12,360 nucleotides of DNA from contig PXSC01000015.1 of the NCBI GenBank assembly GCA_003023535.1, positions 1-12,360 on the forward strand, in the 5' to 3' direction. Positions within the stretch are counted from its first letter, which is position 1, and the number at the start of each line of letters is the position of its first letter. The notes under the pieces were generated by a model. The model saw only the letters and a list, made by a program, of their open reading frames with translations, had not been told where the DNA came from and searched no databases. Below are positions 1 to 12,360 of the stretch, one piece after another. The stretch comes from Halobacteriales archaeon QS_9_70_65. GTDB lineage: Archaea; Halobacteriota; Halobacteria; Halobacteriales; Haloarculaceae. Position numbers and translations under genes: made by a program.

Positions 1-243
1 GTGGACGGTGAGGCTCCGCTCCTCCTCGAACTCCTTGATGAAGTACTCCTCGGTGCGGGCGAACAGCTTCCAGTCGATGAGCCGGGTGTCGTCGCCGGGC
101 GCGTAGCGCCGATAGTCGCTGAACGTCAGCCCCTCGCCGACCCGTGGCGACTCCTGGTCGCCCTGCCGCAGCGCCGCCGCCTGGCGGTCCAGGGCCGCCC
201 CGACCCGGCCCAACTCGTCGAGGAAGTCGGGGTCGATGGTCAC
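1..243 (-). CDS. DUF58 domain protein, N-terminal part (runs off the left edge)
   Basis: The 81 visible codons match the start of the DUF58 proteins that accompany MoxR ATPases. The region around residues 36-59 reads GEGLTFSDYRRYAPGDD and then TRLIDWK, the family signature, followed by an acidic FEEER stretch leading into the vWA-like core, which lies outside the window. DUF58 proteins are usually encoded beside moxR and are thought to be its partner or substrate; their biochemical role is not established. I chose the GTG at 243 because it gives the compact N-terminus (TIDPDFLDEL) expected for the family. An in-frame GTG lies four codons upstream and an in-frame ATG at 363, but the latter would add about 40 mostly Arg/Ser/Pro residues that look unnatural. 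The gene lies 142 bases after moxR on the same strand and is probably the last visible gene of the operon. Confidence 0.88.
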   Translation of the reverse strand, partial: MTIDPDFLDELGRVGAALDRQAAALRQGDQESPRVGEGLTFSDYRRYAPGDDTRLIDWKLFARTEEYFIKEFEEERSLTVH

Positions 244-385
244 GGCCGCCACCCCGCCCGGCCGCCGCCGCCCGGACGTCGCGGCCGTCGGTGGGCTCCA
301 CCGTCGCCTCCGGCTCCGCCTCCGTCTTCGGCTTCGGCTTCGACTTCGCGTCCACGGTCGCATCCCGCCGGCGTCCCGTCCATCG
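244..385 (-). other. Low-complexity spacer between moxR and the DUF58 gene
   Basis: This 142-base stretch contains a degenerate 6-base periodicity (CGAAGC/CGGAGC-like units, about 305-350) and a G/C-only run around 255-290. Minus-strand frames stay open for long distances here. The frame that continues past the moxR stop gives a Lys/Pro/Glu/Ala-rich peptide with haloarchaeal-looking codon use. An ATG at 383, two bases after the moxR stop codon, opens a Glu/Gly-rich reading frame that ends at a TGA overlapping the DUF58 start region. None of these joins the DUF58 frame without a frameshift. It may be a plain spacer, or a disordered N-terminal extension broken by a real or sequencing frameshift. 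Confidence 0.4.
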
Positions 386-1360
386 TCACTCCAGCAGCGA
401 CGCGACGACGTCGTCGGCGGTGGTGCCTTCCCGCTCCGAGCGGAAGTCGAGGACGATGCGGTGCCGGAGGACGGGCGCGGCCAGCGCCTCGATGTCCTCC
501 GCGGCGACGTGCGAGCGGCCCTCGAGGAACGCCCGGGCCTTGGCGGTCGACACCAGCGCCATGCTCGCCCGCGGGCTGGCGCCGAACTCGATGGCGTCGG
601 CCTCGCGGGTCCGTCGGACGATGTCGACGGCCCGCTCGCGGACGTCCTCGGCGATGGGGACGTCCCGGACGAGCCGCTGGGCGGCGCGGATCTCCTCGCG
701 GGTGAGCACCCGCTCGACCGGTACCGTCTCGCTGCCCTCCGTGTAGAGGTCGACGATCTCCTCCTCCTGCTCGCGGCCGGGGTAGTCGACCAGCAGCTTC
801 ATGGTGAAGCGGTCGGTCTGCGCCTCCGGCAGCGCGTACGTCCCCGACTGGTCGATGGGGTTCTGCGTCGCCAGCACGAAGAACGGCTCCGGGAGGTCGT
901 AGGTGTCGCCGGAGGCCGTCACCTGCCGCTCCTGCATCGCCTCCAATAGCGCCGCCTGGGTCTTCGGCGTCGCGCGGTTGATCTCGTCGGCCAGCACCAC
1001 GTTCGCGAAGATCGGCCCTTCCTCGAAGACGAACTCCCGGCCGGCGTCCGTCTCGCGGATGATCTCCGTGCCGGTGATGTCGGACGGCATCAGGTCCGGG
1101 GTGTTCTGGACCCGCGAGAAGCCGAGGTCCGTTACCTCGGCGACGGTGCGCACCATCGTCGTCTTCCCGAGCCCGGGATTCGACTCCAGCAGCGCGTTGC
1201 CGTCCGCGAGAATGCAGACGAACAGCCCGTCGAGCACCGCCTCCTGGCCGACGATACGGCGGTCCAGCTCCTCGCGGGCGTCCCGTAGCTTCGATTGCAG
1301 CTCGTCGATATCGTACTCGTACTGTTCGTCGTCGGCCGTGAGGTCCGTGTCCTGTGTCAT
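386..1360 (-). CDS. moxR: MoxR-family AAA+ ATPase
   Basis: Cytoplasmic AAA+ ATPase of 324 residues, the usual MoxR length. The Walker A motif is SNPGLGKTT (about 60-68), Walker B is VVLADEINR (121-129, Asp125/Glu126), sensor 1 is ATQNP with Asn167, an arginine-finger-like DRF is at 183-185, and the sensor 2 region is GASPRAS with Arg264. All catalytic elements are intact, so it should be an active ATPase. MoxR proteins act as chaperone-like machines that activate or assemble complexes, working with vWA-domain proteins. I chose the ATG at 1360 because the protein then starts with a short acidic tail before the conserved helix; upstream codons in this frame overlap the previous gene and look non-coding. 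It lies 31 bases after the membrane-protein gene and before the DUF58 gene, a classic pairing. The exact client is unknown. Confidence 0.95.
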   Translation of the reverse strand: MTQDTDLTADDEQYEYDIDELQSKLRDAREELDRRIVGQEAVLDGLFVCILADGNALLESNPGLGKTTMVRTVAEVTDLGFSRVQNTPDLMPSDITGTEIIRETDAGREFVFEEGPIFANVVLADEINRATPKTQAALLEAMQERQVTASGDTYDLPEPFFVLATQNPIDQSGTYALPEAQTDRFTMKLLVDYPGREQEEEIVDLYTEGSETVPVERVLTREEIRAAQRLVRDVPIAEDVRERAVDIVRRTREADAIEFGASPRASMALVSTAKARAFLEGRSHVAAEDIEALAAPVLRHRIVLDFRSEREGTTADDVVASLLE

Positions 1361-1391
1361 GTGTTCGGTCGTGTCGATTGGACGGTCACGT

Positions 1392-2315
1392 TCACTCCTG
1401 TTCGCGGATCCGGAGGTTGTACTCCCTGACGAGTTCGGCGTTCTCCACGCGGTCGGGGCGGCTGAAGGCCGCCTGCCGGGTCTCGACGTCGGCGCCGCCG
1501 GCACCGCCCCCGTCGGACGGGAAGTTCCGGTCCTCTTCGATCGGCCCGTCGCCTTCGTTGGCCTCCACCTCGGCGGTGACGTCCTCGCTGCCGCGGTCGA
1601 CCGGGTCGGGGTCGCCCAGCACGGCGCCGCCGTCCCGGAGGCCGTCGGGCTCCGGCGTGACGGCCTCCGGTCGGTCGTCGACCGCCGTCGTCGTGTCGTC
1701 GCCGAGAAACGACAGCCCGACGACGCTCACCTGTAGCGAGGCGAGACACAGCACCACGACGACGATCCCCGTCGCGGCGACCCGCGCGTCGTCGACGAGG
1801 GCGACGCCGGAGGCGTCCCGCAGCCGCTCGAGGGTCTCTTCGTAGAGGCGGGCGGCCATCCGGTTGTCGGCACCCGACTCGACCGCGTCGCGGGCCGTCC
1901 GGAGCGGCCCCGCAACCGCCGGGTTCGCCGCCTCGAACCGCTCGACAAGCGACCGTCTGGTCCGGAGCCAGAACTCCCCGCCGCAAACTGCGACGCCGGC
2001 CAGCACCGCCAGTACCGTCGGGTACGGCACCGCCGACGCGACCGTCGCGAGCGCGACGTTGACGGCCAGCATCGCCGCCACCCCGTCGGCGACCGCGTAG
2101 ATCGCCGCCGCCTTCCGACCCTCGCGCCGGACCGCCGTCAGCGCCCGCTCCATCCGTCCCTGCGGGCTCTCCGGGTCGACGTCGGCCTCCGGGGCCGTCC
2201 CGTCGTCGGCGGTCGCGTCGTCGGCCTGCGTCTTCCCCTCTTCGGGTGCGTTCTCGTTTCCGCTCCCGAGGTCGGCCTCGACGGTGAGGTCCTCCTCGTC
2301 CGCGTCGTCGCTCAC
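1392..2315 (-). CDS. Acidic three-span membrane protein of unknown function
   Basis: I do not recognise a characterised family. The 307-residue protein has a disordered, Asp/Glu-rich N-terminus (1-55), a closely spaced pair of hydrophobic segments (about 68-92 and 96-117), a 60-residue charged stretch probably on the cytoplasmic side, a third membrane segment (about 178-202), and a 105-residue acidic tail probably facing outward. The first two helices with the following amphipathic stretch look like a membrane hairpin carrying a small cytoplasmic domain. The start is GTG at 2315; an in-frame stop at 2325-2327 leaves no upstream alternative. It begins 25 bases after the coiled-coil gene and ends 31 bases before moxR, so it is surely cotranscribed with them. 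A role as membrane partner or anchor for the MoxR/vWA system is inferred from context only. Confidence 0.85.
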   Translation of the reverse strand: MSDDADEEDLTVEADLGSGNENAPEEGKTQADDATADDGTAPEADVDPESPQGRMERALTAVRREGRKAAAIYAVADGVAAMLAVNVALATVASAVPYPTVLAVLAGVAVCGGEFWLRTRRSLVERFEAANPAVAGPLRTARDAVESGADNRMAARLYEETLERLRDASGVALVDDARVAATGIVVVVLCLASLQVSVVGLSFLGDDTTTAVDDRPEAVTPEPDGLRDGGAVLGDPDPVDRGSEDVTAEVEANEGDGPIEEDRNFPSDGGGAGGADVETRQAAFSRPDRVENAELVREYNLRIREQE

Positions 2316-2340
2316 GGCTCCGTCTCACCCGTGTCGGTCA

Positions 2341-2940
2341 TCAGTAGTCGTCGCACTCCGGCTCGTCGCCGTTGTCGTTTTTGTTACAGAGGCTCTCGAG
2401 GTCGCTTTCGAGCCGATTGTTCTCGTTTCGCAGGTTCTCGTTTTCGTTCTCGAGCACCCTGATCCTTTCTTCGAGGTTCTCGATTTCGCTTCTGAGGCCC
2501 TCGATCGTCTCGTTTTTGCCGTCCAGCCGCGATTTCAGCCGGTTCCGCTCGGCGGTGAGGTTGCCGACCCTGAGCGCGAGCTCGTCGACCCGGTTTTCGG
2601 CCTGCTGGAGTTCGCTCGTCGTCCGGTCGAGCTCCTCCTCGGTCGCGGACAGCTCGCTTTCGGTCCGCTCTAGCTCGCTCGTGACCTGGTCGACGTCCTG
2701 GGTCCGGGTTTCGAGGCGGCTCTCGAGGGTGTCGACCTGCTCTCTGGCGTCCTCGAGGTCGCCCCGCGTCGCGTTCAGCTGCGTCCGCAGCTCCTCGTTC
2801 TGCGACCGGAGTTCCTCGTTCTGCGACCGCAGGTCGTCGGCGGAGTCCTGGTACACCACGGTCGCGCCGGCGGTGCCGACCAGGGAGACGACGACGAGGG
2901 CGACCATCCCGACGTTGATGCTTGTACCGATTGCGCTCAC
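2341..2940 (-). CDS. Membrane-anchored coiled-coil protein
   Basis: A 199-residue protein with one N-terminal hydrophobic segment (about 9-30) followed by a nearly continuous coiled coil (about 33-185), rich in Leu, Glu, Asn and Arg with clear heptads. The first heptads are an exact seven-residue duplication (RSQNEEL twice) mirrored in the DNA. The acidic tail holds the only two cysteines, Cys185 and Cys196, which could form a disulfide if the coil lies outside the cell; several N-glycosylation sequons also fit an outside location. The start is GTG at 2940, inside the GTGA overlap with the vWA gene upstream, suggesting translational coupling. The 3' half is visibly less GC-rich than its neighbours, largely because of Asn, Lys and Glu codons. 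No enzymatic motif is present. It may act as a spacer or oligomerisation rod for the surface complex, which is inference. Confidence 0.87.
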   Translation of the reverse strand: MSAIGTSINVGMVALVVVSLVGTAGATVVYQDSADDLRSQNEELRSQNEELRTQLNATRGDLEDAREQVDTLESRLETRTQDVDQVTSELERTESELSATEEELDRTTSELQQAENRVDELALRVGNLTAERNRLKSRLDGKNETIEGLRSEIENLEERIRVLENENENLRNENNRLESDLESLCNKNDNGDEPECDDY

Positions 2941-5111
2941 TGGAGACCACTCTCCAGTAAGGTGCGCCCACGGTACACTTGAAGCCGTCGAGTGACGACG
3001 TACTCCGGGCGGTAGTTGGCGGCGTACTCGGCGCCGAAGGCCGTCCGGTAGCCGCGCTCCTCGGGCGTGACGGTCGCCCGGTAGAGCCCCTTCTCGACCT
3101 GGCTGAACGCCGCCTCGTCGGGCGGCGACTCCCCGCGATACCGGACCCGGGCCGGCTCCCCGAGGCGGGTGTCGGTCGCCGTGGTGACGTCGGTCAGCGT
3201 CCGGGTCGGGTCGCCGACGGCGTAGTTGACCGACCGCGTCGTCAGAATCGAGTCCGGCGCCTCCAGCAGTCCGTCGAGGGTGTTGGCGTCGTCGTAGGCG
3301 GTGATCGAGACCACGCGTCCGAGCCCGAACCGCCAGGAGGCGATCGCCGGCGCCCCGTCGGCCGTCGCGACCTGGAAGGCCGCGCCCTGCTTGACCCGCA
3401 CCTCGTTGGCCCGGCCGGGACTGGCGGTCGGCTCGACGCCGGAGGTGATGAACGTGTTCCGGGAGACGACGGTGAGGTTGTCGCCTTCGACCTGCGAGCC
3501 GCCGCCGCCGAACAGGAGCCGTAGCCGGGTCGTGTCGTCGGCCCGGAGGTACGGGCCGCCGCCGGCGTCGGCGATCTGCCGGAGGACGTCCTCGTCGACG
3601 TTTCCGCCGGCGCCGACCGTGATGACGCGCGTGCCCTGGCGGTCGAGCCGCCGGGCGACGACCGTCGCCGGGTCGGGGTCGTCCTGGCCGTCGGTCAGCA
3701 GGATGACCGTCCCCTGGCGGTCGCCGAGCAGCGTGTTCGCCCCCTGGAGGCCGCGGGCGGTGTCGGTCGCGCCGCCGCTTTCCAGCCGGCGGATCCGGTC
3801 GGTCAGCGTCCGGCGGTTGTTCTCCAGCGGCTGGAGGTCGGCGACCCGGTACGGCTCGATGGTGTAGGCGACGATGCCGACCCGCTGGCGGCCGTCGAGC
3901 TGCTGGACGACGTCGAGGGCGGTGGCCTTCTGTATCTCGAAGGTCCGTCGTGTGCTGCCGGAGACGTCGATCAGGAGCACGATGTTGGCGGCGCTGCCGG
4001 TCGCGTTGCCGACCCGAACCGGCAGCAGCGGCGCCAGCGACGACCGCTCGTAGCCGCCGTCGTCGTAGGCGTTCTCGCCGCCGACGACCACCAGCCCGCC
4101 GCCGCCGACGACGTGCTCCTGGAGCGCGCCGACGTCGCCGACCTCGCTCGCCGGCCGGTCCTGGACGACGACCGCCGCGTAGTCGTCGAGTTCCGACGGC
4201 ACGCTCGAGGCCGTCGTCACGTCGTACAGCTCCTCGAGGTAACTCCGCAGCGGGTAGTCGCCGTCGGCGACGTACAGCAGGTCCGGCTGTTCGACGACCC
4301 GGACGCTCCGGTAGAAGACGTCGTTGCGCTCGTAGACGTCGTCGCCCCGGACCGTCGCGGTCACCCGGTGGGTGCCGGTCTCCTCGAACGTCTCCGAGAC
4401 GGTGAACGCCTCGTTGTCGCCGAGACTCTCGTTGCGGACCGACTCGCCGTCGACGGTCACCTCGACCGGGACGCGCCCGTCGACGGCGGCCCCGCGAAGC
4501 CGGACCGTGAACTCCGTCTCGACGCCCGTGGTGACCGTCTCCGGCCCCTCGATCGCGACGGCCCGCTCGGTTTCGGTGGCGTTCAGCTCGACGGCGTGGA
4601 TCGTCGCGTTCAGCGACCGCGCCTCCTCGGCCGCGGCCGCGAGACTCCGGCCCTCGGTCACCCGTCCGTCGGAGACGACGACGACGGTCCCGTTCTCCCG
4701 GAGGTTCGCCGCCACCCCGTCGCCGACCGGCGAGCTCCCTCCGGCGCCGACGCTGGCCCGCGTCACCGGGACGCCCTCCGATTCGATGTCCGACGCGAGC
4801 CGGTCGGTGACGTTCCGCTGGACGGCCATGCTGGCGGAGTCGTCGGTCAGCAGCGTTACCTCCGGCTCGCCCGGCGTCTCCTGCGATTGGACGGTGAACG
4901 GCCCCATCGCCCCGGAGACGAGCAGACAGACGACGAGCACCCGGCTCGCCAGCAGTAGCCGCCGGCTCCGCTCGGAGGCCGACCGCGTTCCGTCGTCGCC
5001 CCCGAGGGTCAGATACGCCAGCGCCGCGACCGCGGCCGGCAGCAGCGCCAGCGGCCACAGCTGCTCGAGGCCGACCGTGAATCCGTCCGCCAGGGTGTAG
5101 GAGACCGACAT
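2937..5111 (-). CDS. vWA-domain membrane protein with Ig-like and glutamine-amidotransferase-like domains
   Basis: A 724-residue protein. Two N-terminal membrane helices (about 18-37 and 51-70) are joined by a short Arg-rich loop, which by the positive-inside rule puts the large remainder outside the cell; many N-glycosylation sequons agree. Next come a short vWA-like segment with a DxSxS motif (Asp90, Ser92, Ser94) and VSDG near 147, an Ig-like domain (about 185-272), a glutamine-amidotransferase-like fold without visible catalytic Cys (about 276-365), and a full vWA domain (about 376-540) whose metal site shows IDVSGS (Asp382, Ser384, Ser386), GGATD and LLTDG (Asp474). A beta-rich tail follows and no C-terminal helix is seen. 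The ATG at 5111 shares one base with the stop codon of the BatA-like gene. The product is probably a structural or adhesive partner in the MoxR-linked surface system. Confidence 0.9.
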   Translation of the reverse strand: MSVSYTLADGFTVGLEQLWPLALLPAAVAALAYLTLGGDDGTRSASERSRRLLLASRVLVVCLLVSGAMGPFTVQSQETPGEPEVTLLTDDSASMAVQRNVTDRLASDIESEGVPVTRASVGAGGSSPVGDGVAANLRENGTVVVVSDGRVTEGRSLAAAAEEARSLNATIHAVELNATETERAVAIEGPETVTTGVETEFTVRLRGAAVDGRVPVEVTVDGESVRNESLGDNEAFTVSETFEETGTHRVTATVRGDDVYERNDVFYRSVRVVEQPDLLYVADGDYPLRSYLEELYDVTTASSVPSELDDYAAVVVQDRPASEVGDVGALQEHVVGGGGLVVVGGENAYDDGGYERSSLAPLLPVRVGNATGSAANIVLLIDVSGSTRRTFEIQKATALDVVQQLDGRQRVGIVAYTIEPYRVADLQPLENNRRTLTDRIRRLESGGATDTARGLQGANTLLGDRQGTVILLTDGQDDPDPATVVARRLDRQGTRVITVGAGGNVDEDVLRQIADAGGGPYLRADDTTRLRLLFGGGGSQVEGDNLTVVSRNTFITSGVEPTASPGRANEVRVKQGAAFQVATADGAPAIASWRFGLGRVVSITAYDDANTLDGLLEAPDSILTTRSVNYAVGDPTRTLTDVTTATDTRLGEPARVRYRGESPPDEAAFSQVEKGLYRATVTPEERGYRTAFGAEYAANYRPEYVVTRRLQVYRGRTLLESGLQ

Positions 5112-6901
5112 CAGAGGTCACCCCGCCGGTAGAGGTAGCCGATCTCGGCGACGACCACCAGCAGCGCCCCGACGGCGAAGTACTCCGTCAGCGGCCGCGG
5201 CACCTGGCTCGGTGCCGTCCGCGCGATGTTGCCCGTTCGGTCCCGCTCGTCGATCGGCTCGACGGCGGTGTCGGACTCCCGCTCCGACAGCAGCGCCGCG
5301 CTCTCTTGCGCGTCGTCGGTCCCGTAGAAGCCGGGCTCCCGGAGGGTGACCGTCGGCCCCGACAGCGTCCCCTCGGGGCCCTCGACGGTCTCGGCGTCGA
5401 ACTCGACCGTCTCGCCGGTGGCGTGGTTGACCGACGACAGCGTCGGCCGGTCGGCGAGGTAGAACGTCGCCCGCTTCCAGAACACCGGATACCGGCTGTT
5501 GAACTTGAACGACGAGCCGTCCTCGATGTAGCCGTAGAAGAGCAGCCGACCGTCCGCCCGTTCGGCGGTCGCCAGAAGCGGCGTGCCGTCGTCCAACTCG
5601 ACCAGCGCCCGCCCCTCGCGGAGCGACCCGTTCAGGTACACCGACGGGGGCTGGAAGTCGATGTCCGCCGTCAGCGGGGTCCGGGTCGTCGACTCGATTC
5701 TCGGGGTCGACGCCGTGCCGGCCGGCTCCAATAGTAACAGGTCGCCGAGCCGCTCCGGCGGCTCGGGCCGAGCGACGACGCCGACGCCGCCGCCGTCGGC
5801 CAGCACCTGTCGGCCGGTCTCGACGTTGCCCGGCAGCAGCGACTCCGCCTCGACGTCGCCGTAGAGAACGACGTCGTACTCCCGGTCGACCGTCGTCGGC
5901 GGCTCCGCGACGGTGACGTTCACCTGGTCGATGACCTCCAGCGCCGCCGTCAGGTACCGGTTGCGGTCGTTCGTGAACAGCAGCACGTCGACCGTCCCGT
6001 CGGCGGGGGCGGCGACGGCGGCGGTGTCGTCGACCGCGAAGTCGTCGCCCGGCTCGAGGCGGGCCTCGCCGCCGCCGGCCGGCACCGACAGCGTCACCTC
6101 GCCGACGCCGCCCGGCGCCAGCCGGACCTCGCGGCGCTGGTCGCCGAGCGTCACCGTCCGGGTCGTCTCCTCGTCGCCGAAGTTCTTCGCCGTCAACGTC
6201 ACCTGCGAGCCGGCGAACTCCCGGTCGACGAAGCCGACGTTCGTCTCCCCGCCGCCGGCGAACTGCCGGAGGTCGACCGTGACGCCGCGGGCCCGGGCGG
6301 TCGTCACCGGGTCGGTCCAGCGGTCGCCGGCGAAGTCGCTGAACACCACGACGCGGGTGTTTTCGCCCGCCAGCGCCGTCGCCTGCGTCACCGCGCCGCG
6401 GAGGTCGCCGGGGACGCCGGTCGGCTCGACCCGCGAGAGGGCGTTGCGGGCCGTCGCCGGCGTCGCCCGCCTTGCGACCACCTCGCCGCTGCCGGCCGTC
6501 GTGACGACCGACGTCGTGGACGTCACCGCCCCCTCGGCGGCGTCAACGGCCGCCGCGAACCGGCTCTGACCGCCGTCGGTCGTCGCCATGCTGGCGCTCG
6601 AATCGACGACGATCACCGTCTCCTCGACGGTCGTCCGCTCGGCGACCAGCACGTACGGCGCCGCCAGCGACAGCGCCACCAGCACGACCGCCAGCAGCTG
6701 CAACAACAGCAGCAGGCTCCGGGAGAGCCGCTCGAGGTACGGGCTGGTCGCCCGCTGGCGCTTCTCGCTCGCCAGAAACCGGAACGTCGGCAGCTCGACG
6801 CGGTCGGGGTCCGGGCGGATGAGATAGAGAACGACGATGGGAACCGCGAACAACAGGGCGGCGAGCCCCAGCGGCGAGAGAAACGCGTCCTGAATGGCCA
6901 T
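5111..6901 (-). CDS. BatA-like vWA membrane protein
   Basis: A 596-residue protein with the BatA-type N-terminus: a first membrane helix (about 10-29), the conserved stretch VELPTFRFL followed by basic residues, and a second helix (about 62-84). A vWA domain follows with metal-site motif VVDSSAS (Asp100, Ser102, Ser104), then a TGVPGDL-type loop and VVFSDF. After it come an Ig-like region, a glutamine-amidotransferase-like domain, and a C-terminal membrane helix (about 571-591) ending in a basic YRRGDL tail. The main domain should face outward. I chose the ATG at 6901 because it starts the family N-terminus directly and lies about 36 bases from an A/T box; the ATG at 6928 would sit too close to that box. 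It is the first gene of the operon, and Bat proteins act together with MoxR. Confidence 0.92.
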   Translation of the reverse strand: MAIQDAFLSPLGLAALLFAVPIVVLYLIRPDPDRVELPTFRFLASEKRQRATSPYLERLSRSLLLLLQLLAVVLVALSLAAPYVLVAERTTVEETVIVVDSSASMATTDGGQSRFAAAVDAAEGAVTSTTSVVTTAGSGEVVARRATPATARNALSRVEPTGVPGDLRGAVTQATALAGENTRVVVFSDFAGDRWTDPVTTARARGVTVDLRQFAGGGETNVGFVDREFAGSQVTLTAKNFGDEETTRTVTLGDQRREVRLAPGGVGEVTLSVPAGGGEARLEPGDDFAVDDTAAVAAPADGTVDVLLFTNDRNRYLTAALEVIDQVNVTVAEPPTTVDREYDVVLYGDVEAESLLPGNVETGRQVLADGGGVGVVARPEPPERLGDLLLLEPAGTASTPRIESTTRTPLTADIDFQPPSVYLNGSLREGRALVELDDGTPLLATAERADGRLLFYGYIEDGSSFKFNSRYPVFWKRATFYLADRPTLSSVNHATGETVEFDAETVEGPEGTLSGPTVTLREPGFYGTDDAQESAALLSERESDTAVEPIDERDRTGNIARTAPSQVPRPLTEYFAVGALLVVVAEIGYLYRRGDL

Positions 6902-6928
6902 GCGTTGTGGCTGGCCATGGGGATACAT

Positions 6929-7027: not shown

Positions 7028-9565
7028 CTACGCCCCGCCGTCGGGGGCGACCGTGGCCGCGGTCTCTTCGACCCCGATCTCGACGTCGACCTGCACGTCG
7101 GCGCCGTTGAACAGCAGGCCGCCGGCCGCCGGCGGGACGTCGACGTCGGTGCCGGCCAGCTGGCTGGCGCCGTCGCCGGGCACGGAGACGAGCTTCACGA
7201 CGACCTGGTAGACGTCGCCCTCCTCGAGACCCACGGTGACGTCGCCCTCGGCGTCGAGCGTGCCGCGGTAGCTGTCGACGACGGTCGGCGTTCCGGTCGC
7301 GGGACCGTCGTCGTCGACGCCCGCCGGCGACAGCGCGTCGTAGACGACCAAATCGATGTGCGGCGCACCGCCGGTCAGATCGGCGTTCCGGCCCTCGTAG
7401 CCGTCGAAGACGGCGCCGACCTCGTAGGTGCCGGGCCCGGTGATGTAGCCGGCGGCGGCCTGCTCGTCGTCGGGGACGTCGAGCCCCAGCGTCGCCGTCG
7501 TCGTCCCCTCCTCGAACTCGCGGGAGACGGCGTCGACGGCCGCGCCGTCGTTGATGCGGCCGAACCCTTCGTAGGGGTCCCGCTCGCCCGGCGTGTACGC
7601 CGGCGCCTGGTCGCCGTGCCACGGGATCGCGTTGAACGCCGTCGTCGTCGCCGTCGCCAAGAGCGTCGCCTTCGTCTTCAGCGTCCACGCCAGCCGGTCG
7701 GTCTCGTCGCGGCCCTCGTCGAACAGCGCCGACGGCGCCGGCAGGTCCAGCCCCGCGGGGCCGTCCTCCTCCATGGCCTGCATCACCAGCGCCGCCAGCC
7801 CCGCCGTCGACGGCGCCGCCATCGACGTCCCGGTGAACTCGGTGTAGCCGCCGACCTCGCCGTACTCGCCGTCGGCGGTGTCGGTCCGGGCGTCGACCGA
7901 CGTCTCGTCCTGGCCGTAGGCGCAGACGTCCGGCGTCCGGAAGACCTCGCCGTCGTCGGTGACGGTCGCCAGCCCGCCCGAGGAGGTCGTGCTGATGCCG
8001 GAGAGGTGGTCGGTCCGGACGACCGAGATGGCCTCCGGCGCCCCGGAGACGGTGTCGTTGCCGCCGGTCGGCGTCCCCGGCAGGTTCGCGACCGCGTGGG
8101 CCGACACGAGCCCCGCCCGCGCCAGTGCCGCAATGCTCTCGTAAACCTCGTCGTAGTCGTTCTGGACGACCGCCGACGGCACACCGAGCGGCTGGCCCCA
8201 GGACATGCTGACCGCCCGGGACGCGAAGGCCTCGGCGTACCGCTGGGGGTTGTCGCCGATGGTCCGGAGGACGCTGCTGCGGCCGCTGACGAGCGAGAAC
8301 GTGTTCGGCGTGGCGACGAGGCTCTGCCGGGGGGCGACGCCCGGGTGTAGCGCCTGGTCGCCCCGGTCGGTGAGCCCGCCCGTCACCTCGAGGCCGTCGA
8401 TCTCGCCGCTGGCGGCCAGGTCGGTCCCGCGCTCGGCGACGACCGAGGCGGCGACCCGCTCGAGTTCGCCGGTGCCGTCCGGCGACCGGCCGTCGACGGT
8501 CAGTTCGAGCCTGTACGTCCGGCTCGCCTCGTCGGCCCCGGCGTCGTGGACCGCGTCGGCCGTCAGCACCGCCCGCTCGCCGTAGCCGCCCTCGGCGGTG
8601 CTGCCGCCGCCGTGCTGGAGGGCGTTGACCGACGTGCCGCCGGTCGCCAGCTCCGAGCCGTCGGGGCCGACCAGCCGGGCGTCGACCCAGCGGCCGCCGA
8701 GGGCGACGAACAGCTCCCGGCCGGCCGTCTCGCCGGGGGCGACGAACTCCAGCGTCCCCGCCGGCGGTTCCGCCCGGTCGCCGTCGAACTCCCACCGCTC
8801 GAGGAACGTCCCCGTCTCGAGCACCCGCGCCCGGCCGGTGCCGGTCATGATGCCGCAGCAGTGGCTGCCGTGGCCGCTGGTGTCCCGCGGCAGATCCGGG
8901 TCGCCGTCGGCCCGCAGCCAGCCGACGAGCCGCGGCAGCGACCCCCGCGCCGGCGGGTCGACCGCCGAGAGGCTCGCGGCGCCGTCGGTCACCGACAGCC
9001 CGTCGATCGCGTCCACCCGGACCCCCGTCCAGGGGCCGATGTCGCCGTGGCGGGCGTCGACGCCGCTGTCCGGCAGCAGCACCGTCCGGTCGGCGCGGCC
9101 GCGGTAGCCCCGCTCCCAGGCGTGGGCCGCGTTCCGGGCCCGGGGGTTCAGCAGCTCCTGCGGGAACCCGACGTCGAGGGTCCGCTCGGCGACGTCCGTG
9201 CCGTCGGCGTCGTCGGTGACCGTCAGCCGCGCCGTGTAGTCGCCGACCTCCGGCAGCTCCACGGTCGCCGTCGCCGCCTCGCCGGCCGTCGCCGGCAGCC
9301 GGTCGCCGTCGGGTCCCGTCACCTCGAACGCGTACGTCTCGATACCGTCGGCGTCGGCGCTCGGTCGGGACCGCTCGCCCGACAGCCGCACCTCCTCGCC
9401 GGGACTCGGGGCCGCCGGTTCGACGGTCAGAACCGCCCGCGTCGGCGGCCCGCGGCCCTCGCCGTCCGCGCTCGCCGCCCCGGGGACGGCCGCCCCGGCG
9501 ATGCCGGCGCCGGTCGTCTTCAGTACGTCGCGTCTGTCGAACAGAGTCCCGTCCTCGTCCGTCAT
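7028..9565 (-). CDS. Tat-exported S8 (subtilisin-like) serine protease
   Basis: An 845-residue secreted peptidase. The N-terminus carries a twin-arginine signal (DRRDVLK at 10-16, hydrophobic core, AASA cleavage site near 33) with no lipobox Cys. A PKD/Ig-like domain follows (about 43-133). The catalytic triad is visible: Asp166 in PDSG, His232 in GHGSH and Ser581 in GTSMAAP; the oxyanion Asn is probably Asn494 in AVAN. About 175 residues of beta-rich sequence are inserted after the His motif, before the conserved GVAP segment near 409. Beyond the catalytic core is a beta-rich C-terminal domain (about 690-845). No C-terminal membrane helix or sorting motif is seen, so the enzyme should be released. 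Cys236 and Cys237 follow the catalytic His, where proteinase K also has a Cys. It has its own promoter and lies just upstream of the vWA operon on the same strand. Its substrate is unknown. Confidence 0.95.
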   Translation of the reverse strand: MTDEDGTLFDRRDVLKTTGAGIAGAAVPGAASADGEGRGPPTRAVLTVEPAAPSPGEEVRLSGERSRPSADADGIETYAFEVTGPDGDRLPATAGEAATATVELPEVGDYTARLTVTDDADGTDVAERTLDVGFPQELLNPRARNAAHAWERGYRGRADRTVLLPDSGVDARHGDIGPWTGVRVDAIDGLSVTDGAASLSAVDPPARGSLPRLVGWLRADGDPDLPRDTSGHGSHCCGIMTGTGRARVLETGTFLERWEFDGDRAEPPAGTLEFVAPGETAGRELFVALGGRWVDARLVGPDGSELATGGTSVNALQHGGGSTAEGGYGERAVLTADAVHDAGADEASRTYRLELTVDGRSPDGTGELERVAASVVAERGTDLAASGEIDGLEVTGGLTDRGDQALHPGVAPRQSLVATPNTFSLVSGRSSVLRTIGDNPQRYAEAFASRAVSMSWGQPLGVPSAVVQNDYDEVYESIAALARAGLVSAHAVANLPGTPTGGNDTVSGAPEAISVVRTDHLSGISTTSSGGLATVTDDGEVFRTPDVCAYGQDETSVDARTDTADGEYGEVGGYTEFTGTSMAAPSTAGLAALVMQAMEEDGPAGLDLPAPSALFDEGRDETDRLAWTLKTKATLLATATTTAFNAIPWHGDQAPAYTPGERDPYEGFGRINDGAAVDAVSREFEEGTTTATLGLDVPDDEQAAAGYITGPGTYEVGAVFDGYEGRNADLTGGAPHIDLVVYDALSPAGVDDDGPATGTPTVVDSYRGTLDAEGDVTVGLEEGDVYQVVVKLVSVPGDGASQLAGTDVDVPPAAGGLLFNGADVQVDVEIGVEETAATVAPDGGA

Positions 9566-9821: not shown

Positions 9822-9843
9822 CGGTGTGCGGTACGACACGATC

Positions 9844-11532
9844 ATGCACGGTCGTCGACTCGCGACCACGAAGGAGGTGATCGCTCTCGCGACGCCGGAC
9901 AGCGACGAAACCATCGAACGGCTGCGGTCGTGGGCGGCCGGTCACGACATCGAGTTCACCTGTCTGGACATCGGGACCGAGGTGACCGACGACCACGTCG
10001 GACGGGCCCAGGAGACGGTCGCCATCAGCATCGGCGGCGACGGCGCCTTTCTGGAGGGCGTCCGGGCATTCACGCCGCACCAGCTCCCGCTGCTCGGCGT
10101 CAACACCGGGACACTGGCCTTCCTCGCCCGGGTCAACCCGAACGACCTCGACGATGCCATGGACGAGGTGCTCCGGGGCCGCTCGTCGGTCCACGCCCGC
10201 CAGCAGTACCACGTCGCGGCCGGCGACCTGGAGACGACCGGCATCAACGAGGTGTTCCTCCAGAAGCACCCGCCCGAGGAGCGCCACCAAACGAAGGTCG
10301 GGACGCTGCACGTCTACGTCGACGACGAGTACGTCGGCCGGTACTTCGGTAGCGGGCTCATCGTCAGCACGCCCACCGGCAGCACGGGCCGGAGCTACTC
10401 CAATCACGGACCGATCCACTACCCCCACGACAACCGCACGCTGCAGATCGTCCCCCACGAGACCATCAGCGCGACCTCCGACCCCATCGTCGTCAGCCAG
10501 GAGTCGACGGTCCAGGTCGTCCTCGAGGACGACTTCGACATCGACGTCGACGGCGGACGGCGGTACGAGCGGCTCGAACCCGGAACGGTCGTCACCGTCA
10601 CCGGCGCCGACCGGCCGGCCCAGGTCATCCGGACCTCCTACGACGATCCGTTCATCACCGCCCTGGTCGACAAACTGGGCTGGGGGCTCCGGAGCCTCGA
10701 CGACGAGGGGCCCCGCGAGCGGCTGGCCGCCGACGAGGAGTCGGCGGACTTCCTCACGCAGGCGGCCCGCGTCGCCCGGGAGGCCGCCCGGTCGGCCGGC
10801 GAGCCGCTCCACGAACTCCACGGCCAGGTCGAGCAGGTCGAGTACAAAACCGACAAAGCCGACATCGTCACCGAGGCCGACTACCAGTCCGAACACATCA
10901 TCAGCACCGTCATCGAAAGCGAGTTCCCGAGCCACGGCATCCGCTCGGAGGAGAGCCCGGCGGTCCCGGCGGAAGGCGACTACACCTGGTTGGTCGACCC
11001 ACTGGACGGCACCGGCAACTTCGCCCACGGCAACCCCAACTACTCGGTGTCCATCGCGCTGCTCGACGCCGACGAAACCCCGGTCATCGGGGTGGTGTAC
11101 AACCCCGAATCCGACGAGATGTTCCACGGCGTCGCCGGCCGCGGCGCCTACCAGAACGACACGCCGATCGCGCCGACCGACCGGGACCGCCTCGACGAGA
11201 GCATGCTCCTGTCCGGCTACGACCCCGACGGTAGCTTCCTGCAGGCGTTCTACAGCGAGACACAGGGGGTCCGCCGGCTCGGCAGCGCCGCGCTCCATCT
11301 CGCCTACGTCGCCGCCGGCAGCGCCGACGCCGTCTGGGAGTACGACACCCACCCGTGGGACGTCGCGGCCGGCCTCTGCATCCTCCGGGAGGCCGGCGGA
11401 GCCGCCACCGACGACGAGGGCACCGACTACCGCGTCCGGCTGGATGCCGACGGCGACCGCACGCCCATCCTCGCCAGCAACGGCGTGGTCCACGACGCGC
11501 TGCTGGAGCACCTCTCGACACGGGACGTCTGA
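9844..11532 (+). CDS. nadK: NAD kinase fused to inositol-monophosphatase-family phosphatase
   Basis: A 562-residue cytoplasmic bifunctional enzyme. The N-terminal half (1-280) is an NAD kinase with GGDG (64-67), GVNTGTLAFL (85-94), the NE pair (Asn135/Glu136) and STPTGSTG (175-182) with a GPI after it; it should phosphorylate NAD to NADP. The C-terminal half (about 300-562) is an inositol-monophosphatase-family enzyme with DIVTEAD (340-346), SEE (368-370), the metal motif DPLDGT (385-390) and WDVAAG (505-510). All metal ligands appear intact, so it may remove the 2'-phosphate from NADP or act on inositol or fructose phosphates. A comparable kinase/phosphatase fusion is known in Methanocaldococcus (MJ0917), where as I recall the phosphatase comes first; here the order is reversed. 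The ATG at 9844 fits the promoter. A second copy of this gene converges on it from the right edge. Confidence 0.94.
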   Translation: MHGRRLATTKEVIALATPDSDETIERLRSWAAGHDIEFTCLDIGTEVTDDHVGRAQETVAISIGGDGAFLEGVRAFTPHQLPLLGVNTGTLAFLARVNPNDLDDAMDEVLRGRSSVHARQQYHVAAGDLETTGINEVFLQKHPPEERHQTKVGTLHVYVDDEYVGRYFGSGLIVSTPTGSTGRSYSNHGPIHYPHDNRTLQIVPHETISATSDPIVVSQESTVQVVLEDDFDIDVDGGRRYERLEPGTVVTVTGADRPAQVIRTSYDDPFITALVDKLGWGLRSLDDEGPRERLAADEESADFLTQAARVAREAARSAGEPLHELHGQVEQVEYKTDKADIVTEADYQSEHIISTVIESEFPSHGIRSEESPAVPAEGDYTWLVDPLDGTGNFAHGNPNYSVSIALLDADETPVIGVVYNPESDEMFHGVAGRGAYQNDTPIAPTDRDRLDESMLLSGYDPDGSFLQAFYSETQGVRRLGSAALHLAYVAAGSADAVWEYDTHPWDVAAGLCILREAGGAATDDEGTDYRVRLDADGDRTPILASNGVVHDALLEHLSTRDV

Positions 11533-11634
11533 CCGCCCCGCCCGCCGGCTCGGAACGCCGGCGAGGTGCCATCGTCAGTCGCTCGCGTCGAGTCCGGAGC
11601 AGACTCCGGAATCGTTCCGATTAGGATGTGTATG
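11411..11634 (+). repeat. Left arm of a 224-bp inverted duplication (gene end plus 3' flank)
   Basis: This segment covers the last 122 bases of the fusion gene and 102 bases of its 3' flank. Its reverse complement matches 12137-12360 without any gap and with 14 mismatches by my count: 6 in the coding part and 8 in the flank. The right arm continues past the window, so the duplication is longer than can be seen. Confidence 0.95.
11544..11622 (+). terminator. Row of three small hairpins just after the fusion gene
   Basis: Beginning 11 bases after the stop codon are GCCGGC-(7)-GCCGGC (11544-11562), TCCGGAG-CAGA-CTCCGGA (11593-11610), and AATCG-TTC-CGATT (11610-11622), which shares one base with the second. 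No T-run follows, as would be typical of archaeal termination, so the role could equally be mRNA 3'-end protection or processing. The same three hairpins occur after the second gene copy, and the base changes between copies keep the pairing. Confidence 0.4.
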
Positions 11635-11667
11635 GAACGAACGAGTGAACGTTTGACTCGACGTACA

Positions 11668-11710
11668 GACCTCGAAAGCCCTCGGCCGGCTCCGGTCGCG
11701 CGGCTCGCTG
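11668..11710 (+). repeat. Left 43-bp perfect inverted repeat
   Basis: The 43 bases starting GACCTCGAAAGCCC and ending GCGGCTCGCTG are matched exactly, in reverse complement, at 12057-12099. The sequence just outside (11635-11667 compared with 12100-12136) is diverged, so this is a separate block of identity from the gene-end duplication. The two copies bound a 432-bp region holding the hairpin array and the central stem-loop. Confidence 0.93.
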
Positions 11711-11715
11711 TCGTT

Positions 11716-11873
11716 CGAGAGAGCTCCGCTCTCTCGTGATGTTGCCAGAATCCGCAGGATTCTGGCCGCTTGCCGGACGTCGTCCGGCAATGTCGTCAGA
11801 ACGCGACGCGTTCTGACTGCAAGCGGGAAATCTCCGATTTCCCGCAATGACGAAAGACGCGTCGCGTCTTTCG
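11716..11873. repeat. Array of six tandem hairpins with different stems and 3-base loops
   Basis: Six perfect short palindromes follow each other at 25-28 base intervals. Stems and loops are: 11716-11736 (9 bp, loop TCC), 11744-11766 (10 bp, loop GCA), 11770-11790 (9 bp, loop GTC), 11795-11817 (10 bp, loop GAC), 11823-11845 (10 bp, loop TCC), and 11851-11873 (10 bp, loop GTC). Spacers are 7, 3, 4, 5 and 5 bases and none extends a stem. The stem sequences differ from one another, although 5' halves tend to be purine-rich (for example CCAGAATCC, GTCAGAACGC, CGAAAGACGC). The geometry is therefore conserved and the sequence is not. Either strand can fold, as RNA or as extruded DNA. The array lies between two convergent gene copies, where a terminator, a structured RNA, a recombination barrier or a protein-binding array could all fit. 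No function can be assigned. Confidence 0.93.
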
Positions 11874-11930
11874 AACCACGCTCCTCACTCCGTTGCGGTG
11901 CTTGCGTCGCCGTGCTTCCCGGACCCGGCC

Positions 11931-11996
11931 TCGCCCTTTCAGTCCACCAGGAAATCGGCTTTCCGGCCGGCTGTCCCTGGCGGACTGAAAGGGCGA
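11931..11996. repeat. Central stem-loop of the intergenic palindrome
   Basis: The 21-base arm at 11931-11951 (TCGCCCTTTCAGTCCACCAGG) pairs with 11976-11996 with a single mismatch, around a 24-base loop that itself contains CCGGCCGG. Weaker inverted similarity continues outward: GTGCTTGC(G/A)TCGCCG occurs at about 11898 on the plus strand and at about 12014-12030 on the minus strand. The whole region between the genes is thus one long imperfect palindrome centred near 11964. Confidence 0.85.
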
Positions 11997-12056
11997 GCGG
12001 CGCTCGGCGGTGCCTCGGCGATGCAAGCACTGAGGGAGCGGAGCGACCGAGGCGCG

Positions 12057-12099
12057 CAGCGAGCCGCGCGACCGGAGCCGGCCGAGGGCTTTCGAGGTC
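12057..12099 (-). repeat. Right 43-bp perfect inverted repeat
   Basis: Exact reverse complement of 11668-11710. On this side the repeat leads directly into the outer part of the central palindrome, without any hairpin array. No short direct repeats are evident just outside the pair, so a simple transposition with target-site duplication is not supported. Confidence 0.93.
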
Positions 12100-12148
12100 C
12101 TTACCTCAAGTCAGTCGTTGCCACCACGAACCGACACATACACACCCT

Positions 12149-12227
12149 AACCGGAACGATTCCGGAGTCTGCTCCGGACTCGACGTGAACGACTGACGAT
12201 GGCACCCCACCGGCGTTCCGAGCCGAC
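12149..12227 (-). terminator. Three hairpins after the second fusion-gene copy
   Basis: Counterpart of the structures after the first copy. In the sense of this gene the order is GTCGGC-(7)-GCCGGT (12209-12227), TCCGGAG-TCTG region with CTCCGGA (12161-12178), and AATCG-TTC-CGGTT (12149-12161). Three stem bases differ from the other copy and each change leaves a G-U pair in the sense RNA. A role in 3'-end formation is plausible but unproven. Confidence 0.4.
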
Positions 12228-12238
12228 GGGCGGTGCGG

Positions 12239-12360
12239 TCAAACGTCTCGGGTCGCGAGGTGCTCCAGCAGCGCGTCGTGGACCACGCCGTTGCTGGCGA
12301 GGATGGGCGTGCGGTCGTCGTCGGCGTCCAGCCGGACGCGGTAGTCGGTGCCCTCGTCGT
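12239..12360 (-). CDS. Second copy of the NAD kinase/phosphatase fusion, C-terminal end only
   Basis: Only the last 39 codons and the stop are inside the window. The peptide runs from DEGTDYRVRLDAD through ILASNGVVHDALLEH to LATRDV and differs from the first copy at two residues: Asp for Gly in the DADGD stretch, and Ala for Ser four residues before the end. The four other base differences are silent. The frame is intact to the same stop position, so the visible part shows no sign of decay. Whether the NAD kinase domain is also present lies beyond the edge. The visible end belongs to the phosphatase domain. It converges on the complete copy, with 706 bases between the two stop codons. Confidence 0.9.
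   Translation of the reverse strand, partial: DEGTDYRVRLDADDDRTPILASNGVVHDALLEHLATRDV

Follow-up and report, generated by a model that had tools for sequence, protein, structure and literature searches.

A recurrent array of tandem hairpins in haloarchaea is probably a transposase-free mobile DNA element

The six tandem hairpins described here represent, with a probability that we put at about 0.6, a short mobile DNA element of haloarchaea that carries no transposase and acts as folded DNA. They lie in a window of 12,360 bases (the whole stretch of DNA that was analysed) and share one structural grammar with arrays in most of the sampled haloarchaeal genomes (235/293). The kind to which they belong is known in outline from SMRs, PATEs and MITEs. 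What appears to be new is the architecture of a hairpin array, together with stems that change in pairs, free GNA-rich loops and, in a few copies, insertion at the side of a hairpin loop. No account of such arrays was found among the best-ranked papers of a mostly open-access literature, judged by title and opening of the abstract. PMC13155455 surveys perfect inverted repeats in 118,019 genomes and has no word starting with 'halo' in its accessible part, and the accessible part of PMC7230728 deals with AT-rich promoter repeats of haloviruses, which are different from the hairpin arrays.

Six hairpins in 158 bases

Six perfect palindromes were found at 11716-11873. Their stems measure 9, 10, 9, 10, 10 and 10 bp, every loop has 3 nt, and successive hairpins start 28, 26, 25, 28 and 28 bases apart; the geometry reported in the initial annotation (stems of 9-10 bp, loops of 3 bases) was reproduced at identical coordinates on recomputation. 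In order they are hairpin A (11716-11736; 9 bp, loop TCC), hairpin B (11744-11766; 10 bp, loop GCA), hairpin C (11770-11790; 9 bp, loop GTC), hairpin D (11795-11817; 10 bp, loop GAC), hairpin E (11823-11845; 10 bp, loop TCC) and hairpin F (11851-11873; 10 bp, loop GTC), all listed without strand. The rest of the 12,360-base window holds no further triloop hairpin with a perfect stem of at least 8 bp. A first-order Markov model of the nearest genome (G001) yields 14 such hairpins in 192,607 bases, so that six of them within 158 bases cannot be attributed to chance, just as had been claimed from the letters. The real G001 sequence has 101 hairpins of this class per 381,612 bases.

The stems differ in sequence within the window array, which excludes a CRISPR array with its identical repeats and unique spacers and upholds the earlier rejection of a CRISPR, a tandem duplication and a standard REP cluster. 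The accompanying statement that the stems are of different sequence is right for a single array but does not extend to arbitrary sequence, as the arrays draw on a reused vocabulary of stems with conserved linkers between them.

A family with a common grammar

A covariance model (R1) built from nine 4-hairpin arrays, with 12 candidates scored per genome, matched 235 of the 293 Halobacteriales genomes and 75 of the 87 genera at E 1e-5, with 1 to at least 12 matches per positive genome. The scan of haloarchaeal genomes that the initial annotation had suggested as a check, run here by covariance model, thus gave the recurrence looked for. In a sample of the phylum 37 of 246 genomes matched, all of them Halobacteriales; 20 of the 209 R1-negative genomes of this sample were listed, 6 of the order and 14 of the phylum only. 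Two plasmid records contain an array match, a search of phage records for the array was negative at E 0.01 and plasmid PL47 of H. walsbyi gave no R1 match at E 1. Exact-stem patterns were also tried as a family search and recovered modules B and E in just 3 and 2 of 60 relatives; they were dropped because the stems change from genus to genus.

The full form reads, in array orientation, GTCGTT[A]TGATGTT[B]CGC[C]TGTC[D]TGCAA[E]AATGA[F]AACCAC, and whole modules are absent in the shorter forms A-D-E-F, A-B-E-F and A-F. The lengths are 105-127 nt for 4-hairpin forms and 169-178 nt for 6-hairpin forms. The statistics rest on 59 arrays, one per locus, out of 67 sources, selected via a model that favours well-formed hairpins. 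L094 and L131 were left out as the same places as L103 and L116, and so were L037, L042, L044, L048, L059 and L093, whose matches were short, weak or absent. The arrays of the window, L021, L025, L060, L061, L063, L072, L076, L079 and L144 were extended by hand past the model match so as to cover them in full. For the statistics of loops, flank complementarity and insertion sites the near-identical L106, L134 and L148 were removed, leaving 56 arrays.

Across the 59 arrays nine bases on each side are conserved at 88-100% per position, and the ends are inverted, GTCGTTCGA standing against TCGAACCAC, the reverse complement of which is GTGGTTCGA. In the window the 168-bp unit at 11711-11878 (+ strand), delimited by its en bloc absence in G001 and by this end profile of 88-100%, has the ends GTCGTTCGA from 11710 and TCGAACCAC to 11879, one shared base on each side included.

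Occupied and empty sites

The orthologous locus of G001 lacks window 11711-11878 en bloc, between 11710 and 11879, and carries a different two-hairpin array at the mirror site, on the other arm of the larger repeat. The joined flanks of the window array align with L011/L020 (one locus) over 98 nt at 99% and gapless at the junction. Triloop hairpins are absent from this region in L012. The same was observed in a second genus, where G149 has an array (L156; L108 is the same place) and G311 has none (L157): the joined flanks of L108 match L157 over 122 nt at 97.5% and gapless, with an adjoining stretch at 94% over about 1,060 bases. Among the loci listed as orthologous to L156 (at most 30 of 52), L156 has the sole array. 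For the joined flanks of the 59 arrays a gapless empty counterpart was found in 22 cases, only a gapped one in 8 and no spanning match in 29; the gapless matches listed range from 72 to 99% identity and include overlapping records of one place and paralogous copies of the larger repeat. None of the 22 arrays with a gapless empty counterpart shows a target duplication.

Three copies in G211 share a block of 174-177 bp at 95-97%, in which the four hairpins and their loops are identical, and their flanks otherwise align just in short hairpin repeats. Related copies within one genome were also seen in G134 (L134-L137), G132 (L138, L139) and G115 (L140, L141); in these the likeness extends beyond the array (158-361 bp, 85-99%), and such pairs could help to date copies and to delimit larger mobile units.

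In most arrays the unit stands between a G and a C, with C as the base after it in 51 of 56. Sites of the form CGNNG^C account for 32/56 against a background of 14% of GC dinucleotides, although 20 of these 32 are CGCTG, the site in the larger repeat of the window, and hardly independent; CGNAG accounts for 8/56 against a background of 2%. At two of these eight, L116 and L149, joining the flanks gives a hairpin of 10 and 9 bp, respectively, through a GAA loop, and the array stands one base 3' of the loop, whereas at the other six the stem through the loop has just 1-2 bp. The empty counterparts of L148 and L149, found in L118 and L140, are array-less hairpins of the GNA-loop kind. Placement in palindromic repeats was seen for the window array and for others. 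A position at the tip of an outer palindrome was considered for all arrays and rejected as a general rule, since it describes a subset only (9/56, against a shuffled mean of 3.3 and a largest value of 7 in 200 shuffles).

Relation to known elements and the candidate enzyme

On the best reading of these features, the arrays appear nearest in kind to the SMRs of Haloquadratum and may work as they do. In the accessible text of PMC3119063, SMR-A of Haloquadratum walsbyi is a non-coding element of about 110 bp with inverted ends and without target duplication, inserted into the near-terminal palindromes of PATEs and IS605-type elements, by a mobilisation termed 'enigmatic', and SMR copies of one type are highly alike, commonly >95%. 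The arrays resemble SMR-A in size (105-127 nt in the 4-hairpin form), in being non-coding, in their inverted ends, in the lack of target duplication and in their placement inside palindromic repeats. In this comparison of descriptions, tandem triloop hairpins do not figure in the account of SMRs, and the high likeness of SMR copies and the weakness of the R1 matches in H. walsbyi C23 are further differences. MITEs, by the same accessible account (PMC3119063), are likewise short, non-coding and dispersed with inverted ends, but often have target duplications, against none in 22 arrays, and the body of the arrays is multi-hairpin. PATEs and IS200/IS605 elements are palindrome-based and without target duplication as the arrays are, but PATEs are described there as having palindromes near their termini and no inverted ends (PMC3119063), whereas the arrays consist of hairpins end to end and do have inverted ends, so that the lack of terminal inverted repeats expected of an IS200/IS605 element or a PATE was not found.

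Modules of the same kind do occur in PATE-like loci of H. walsbyi. In strain C23 (G092, assigned by a plasmid PL100 match of 100% over 1,930 bases) R1 gave 25 weak matches at E up to 10, the best at 0.003, and several of the 11 loci inspected are two-hairpin arrays built of the same kind of module. The array of L189 reads GTCGTC[CGAGAGAC]..[CGAAAATC]AACGAC and lies within repeated sequence that is PATE-like by eye. L188, L189, L191 and L198 of this strain show two-hairpin arrays and ACGAATCGC/CCAGAAATC modules, within repeated loci that are PATE-like by eye.

In REP/BIME systems one stem is repeated and a RAYT gene is associated, RAYTs belonging to the Y1_Tnp superfamily. The arrays share with them the dispersed intergenic hairpins but differ in that the modules of one array have different stems and the loops vary freely; an assignment to REP/BIME with RAYT was rejected on the different stems within an array and on the absence of a Y1_Tnp match in 75 of 235 array-bearing genomes. 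Integron attC sites are folded single-strand DNA recognised by shape under weak sequence constraint. The arrays would be similar in folding as single-strand DNA and in recognition by shape, a proposed likeness, but they leave no room for cassettes between the hairpins and have fixed triloops in tandem order.

The alternative that survives best, although we consider it unlikely, is that the arrays are PATE-like derivatives of IS200/IS605 elements, moved in trans by a Y1 enzyme (TnpA) that cuts folded single strands. IS200/IS605 chemistry produces no target duplication and leaves clean empty sites, with which the arrays agree, and the two-hairpin arrays of the same kind in the Haloquadratum walsbyi C23 loci judged PATE-like by eye point the same way. 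Y1_Tnp was matched (E 1e-5) in 186/293 genomes and is commoner in genomes with R1 matches (160/235) than in those without (26/58), with an odds ratio of 2.6 and a p of 0.001 that are uncorrected for kinship. However, 75 of the 235 array-bearing genomes have no Y1_Tnp match at E 1e-5; among them is G134, which has at least 12 R1 matches and two copies 98.7% alike over 158 bp. The inverted ends of the arrays also argue against this origin, as PATEs and IS605-type elements are without them in the accessible text of PMC3119063. Judging from these 75 genomes, G134 among them, a Y1 enzyme would thus not be needed there today, unless it has since been lost or was missed by the family model.

Near the arrays no transposase was detected among the 25 families listed out of 78, in a Pfam scan of 46 of the 111 predicted neighbour genes, and the neighbours scanned belong to ordinary enzyme and regulator families. 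The role of a substrate for a hairpin-recognising recombinase, one of those offered initially, is in agreement with the clean presence and absence of the arrays, while no enzyme was found to go with it.

Genomic context

None of the 59 arrays lies inside a predicted gene, genes being called by a codon-based predictor trained on six window genes. Tandem neighbours flank 22 of them, convergent ones 20 and divergent ones 10; 7 arrays could not be classed. A resident chromosomal element, whose hairpin DNA binds a protein of the nucleoid, of repair or of replication and is maintained by selection on the host, would suit this intergenic distribution as well as the conservation of ends and linkers over the 59 arrays in a family spread over 75 genera. 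We hold this explanation to be more doubtful still, as a mobile repeat better explains why close relatives differ in having an array at a given site and why copies stand in unlike flanks, and the number of R1 matches per positive genome varies from 1 to at least 12.

Change in stems and loops

In the nine-sequence alignment 99.1% of the cells are paired; the change affects both sides in 32 cells and a single side in 1. Two-sided changes occur there in 14/40 pairs, against a mean of 7.4 in shuffles, none of 500 of which reached 14; the measure of 'further pair types' showed no excess in this alignment (16 vs 15.0 in shuffles). When 45 pairs of arrays with the same geometry were compared (members being shared among pairs), the 1,757 stem pairs showed 214 changes that were compensated, 12 that were one-sided and 6 that were two-sided in another way. 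The linkers changed at 78 of 1,340 sites (0.058 per site) and the loops at 301 of 543 (0.55 per site). The two-sided count is not equal to a count of mutations because it arises partly from exchange of whole modules, e.g. B for D. The window array and L060 (genome G012) differ in 10 of 170 bases, every one of them in loops. It is the shape that is kept, as first proposed.

Among 1,002 same-stem hairpin pairs, which are non-independent, loops differing at 0, 1, 2 and 3 positions were observed 123, 278, 265 and 336 times against 79, 232, 350 and 341 expected; loops thus differ almost as independent draws, with some excess of identical ones. Two explanations of loop change were set aside. Inversion of loops (reverse-complement loops in same-stem pairs; 93 vs 71 expected of the 1,002 non-independent pairs) was not used, and rewriting of the loops at each copying is ruled out by the three G211 copies, which carry identical loops. 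Orthologous arrays recognised by flank similarity among the 59 amount to three pairs only, too few to use; in one of them, L096/L108, the flank is 93% on one side and the arrays differ in loops and modules.

The constraint on the stems looks like one on DNA and not on RNA. In the inner 8 bp of 255 hairpins 74 of 2,040 pairs are mismatched, some of these being mis-centred hairpins, and G.T (25) is about as frequent as A.C (19; others 30), whereas an RNA fold under selection would have tolerated G.U and shown a clear excess of it in the orientation of the array. Loops of the form GNA occur in 60 of the 255 array hairpins and those of the complementary form TNC in 69 (together 129/255), and their similar frequency indicates no strongly preferred strand. 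The closing pair is C-G in 233 of the 255. A model-independent sample of C-G-closed hairpins from 381,612 bases of G001 gave GNA or TNC loops in 31 of 59 array-like hairpins (stem of at least 7 and a neighbour at 18-34 bases) against 26 of 194 (13%) isolated ones (stem of at least 6). C(GNA)G turns are reportedly extraordinarily stable DNA minihairpins, to judge by the titles of Hirao 1994 and Yoshizawa 1997, which PMC6895277 and PMC6479982 give as references.

These counts also bear on the suggestion that the arrays are transcribed structured RNAs or transcript ends, which we regard as improbable. The RNA fold is very stable (z = -19 for the larger repeat), 42 of the 59 arrays have tandem or convergent predicted genes on their two sides, and covariation, one mark of a structured RNA, is present; the other mark, tolerated G.U, was not found, since G.U shows no clear excess over A.C (25 vs 19 of 74) although an RNA could tolerate it. 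Against this suggestion stand, in addition, the balance of GNA (60) and TNC (69), hence the lack of a preferred strand, and the outcome of an Rfam scan of 11400-12360, in which none of 7 matches with E up to 1 reached the gathering score. The structured RNA and the terminator among the options of the initial annotation are accordingly not supported, the former on the mismatch counts and the latter on the 10 of 59 arrays that lie between divergent predicted genes.

A working model

If the arrays are transposase-free mobile elements acting as folded DNA, each would move, or disappear, in a single piece of about 105-180 bp and leave its target unduplicated. The family, its grammar, the compensated stems, the free loops and the clean presence and absence are direct observations. 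We infer that insertion is the main direction, whereas the empty sites could be clean losses rather than pre-insertion states. Most insertions would separate the G from the C of a GC dinucleotide within a palindromic repeat; for at least two copies the site would be one base 3' of the loop in a C(GNA)G hairpin that was already there. The working form would be folded DNA, as a single strand or a cruciform, whose hairpins may be recognised or protected, and the mobilising enzyme would act in trans. The arms may stay complementary because the fold is selected for or because each arm can serve as the template for repairing the other, and the loops would be free save for a preference for stable GNA turns.

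A bolder version, possible but put forward tentatively, is that of selfish or domesticated DNA inherited by shape, in which a structure-specific recombinase other than Y1 would insert the arrays by GNA triloops, palindromes would nest and the arms would template the repair of each other. If this is true, stem sequences may change while the fold stays, and insertion may occur beside GNA triloops of hairpins of the array's own kind too. The arrays provide natural replicated data on the evolution of DNA palindromes, in which the arms change together and the loops drift. The movement of transposase-free mobile repeats of haloarchaea, 'enigmatic' in the accessible text of PMC3119063, becomes testable.

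The larger palindromic repeat and its surroundings

The array is held by a larger palindromic repeat of 432 bp (11668-12099, without strand) with 43-bp perfect inverted ends, the left arm at 11668-11710 (+ strand) and the right arm at 12057-12099 (- strand), and a central hairpin at 11930-11997 (without strand) whose 22-nt arms are 95% complementary. Its ends read GACCTCGAAAGCCCTCG and its central hairpin CCCTTTCAGTCC, and the predicted fold is a multibranched tree (z = -20 for DNA, -19 for RNA). The DNA query 11668-12099, array included, gave matches at E 1e-4 in 243/293 genomes of the order and 72/87 genera, with 2 candidates scored per genome. The larger repeat is widespread in haloarchaea, with arrays at either arm, and its central hairpin is apparently inverted in L012 relative to window 11930-11997. 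G001, the nearest genome, matches window 9826-11710 at 95% and has at least 86 matches to the query 9826-12360 (best 40 of 610 candidates scored), most of which, among the matches listed, are in the palindromic region.

The stretch 11411-11710 is 90% complementary to 12057-12360, the left flank being repeated in reverse past 12099. The inverted copy outside the palindrome is 93.8% identical to the left copy over 224 bases, and the left copy of the window is 90 and 92% identical to L011 and L012, which have different sequence to the right of the palindrome. As the two copies are not much closer to each other than the left one is to L011 and L012, and the right flanks of the latter differ, window 12100-12360 is probably a fold-back of the assembly through the palindrome. 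The convergent right-hand gene of the window is probably part of this fold-back. Such palindromes can make assemblies fold back, which calls for caution. With 12100-12360 seemingly the left flank folded back, the local assembly is less than fully trustworthy, but that the array itself is due to chance or to an assembly artefact can practically be dismissed, as this is contradicted by arrays of the same grammar in many genomes (235/293), single-contig genomes among them.

The stretch 12100-12360 corresponds to an inverted copy of the 3' end of an NAD kinase gene and its downstream flank. This gene lies to the left of the larger repeat, at 9826-11532, as one open frame of 568 aa, and its product combines the N- and C-terminal domains of NAD kinase with an inositol monophosphatase domain; relatives over nearly the full length are encoded at nine loci of genome contigs. 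Window 1-6928 is operon-like and encodes DUF58, MoxR-type AAA, DUF7502 and BatA/VWA-domain proteins, and this run is followed by a subtilase gene at 7028-9565.
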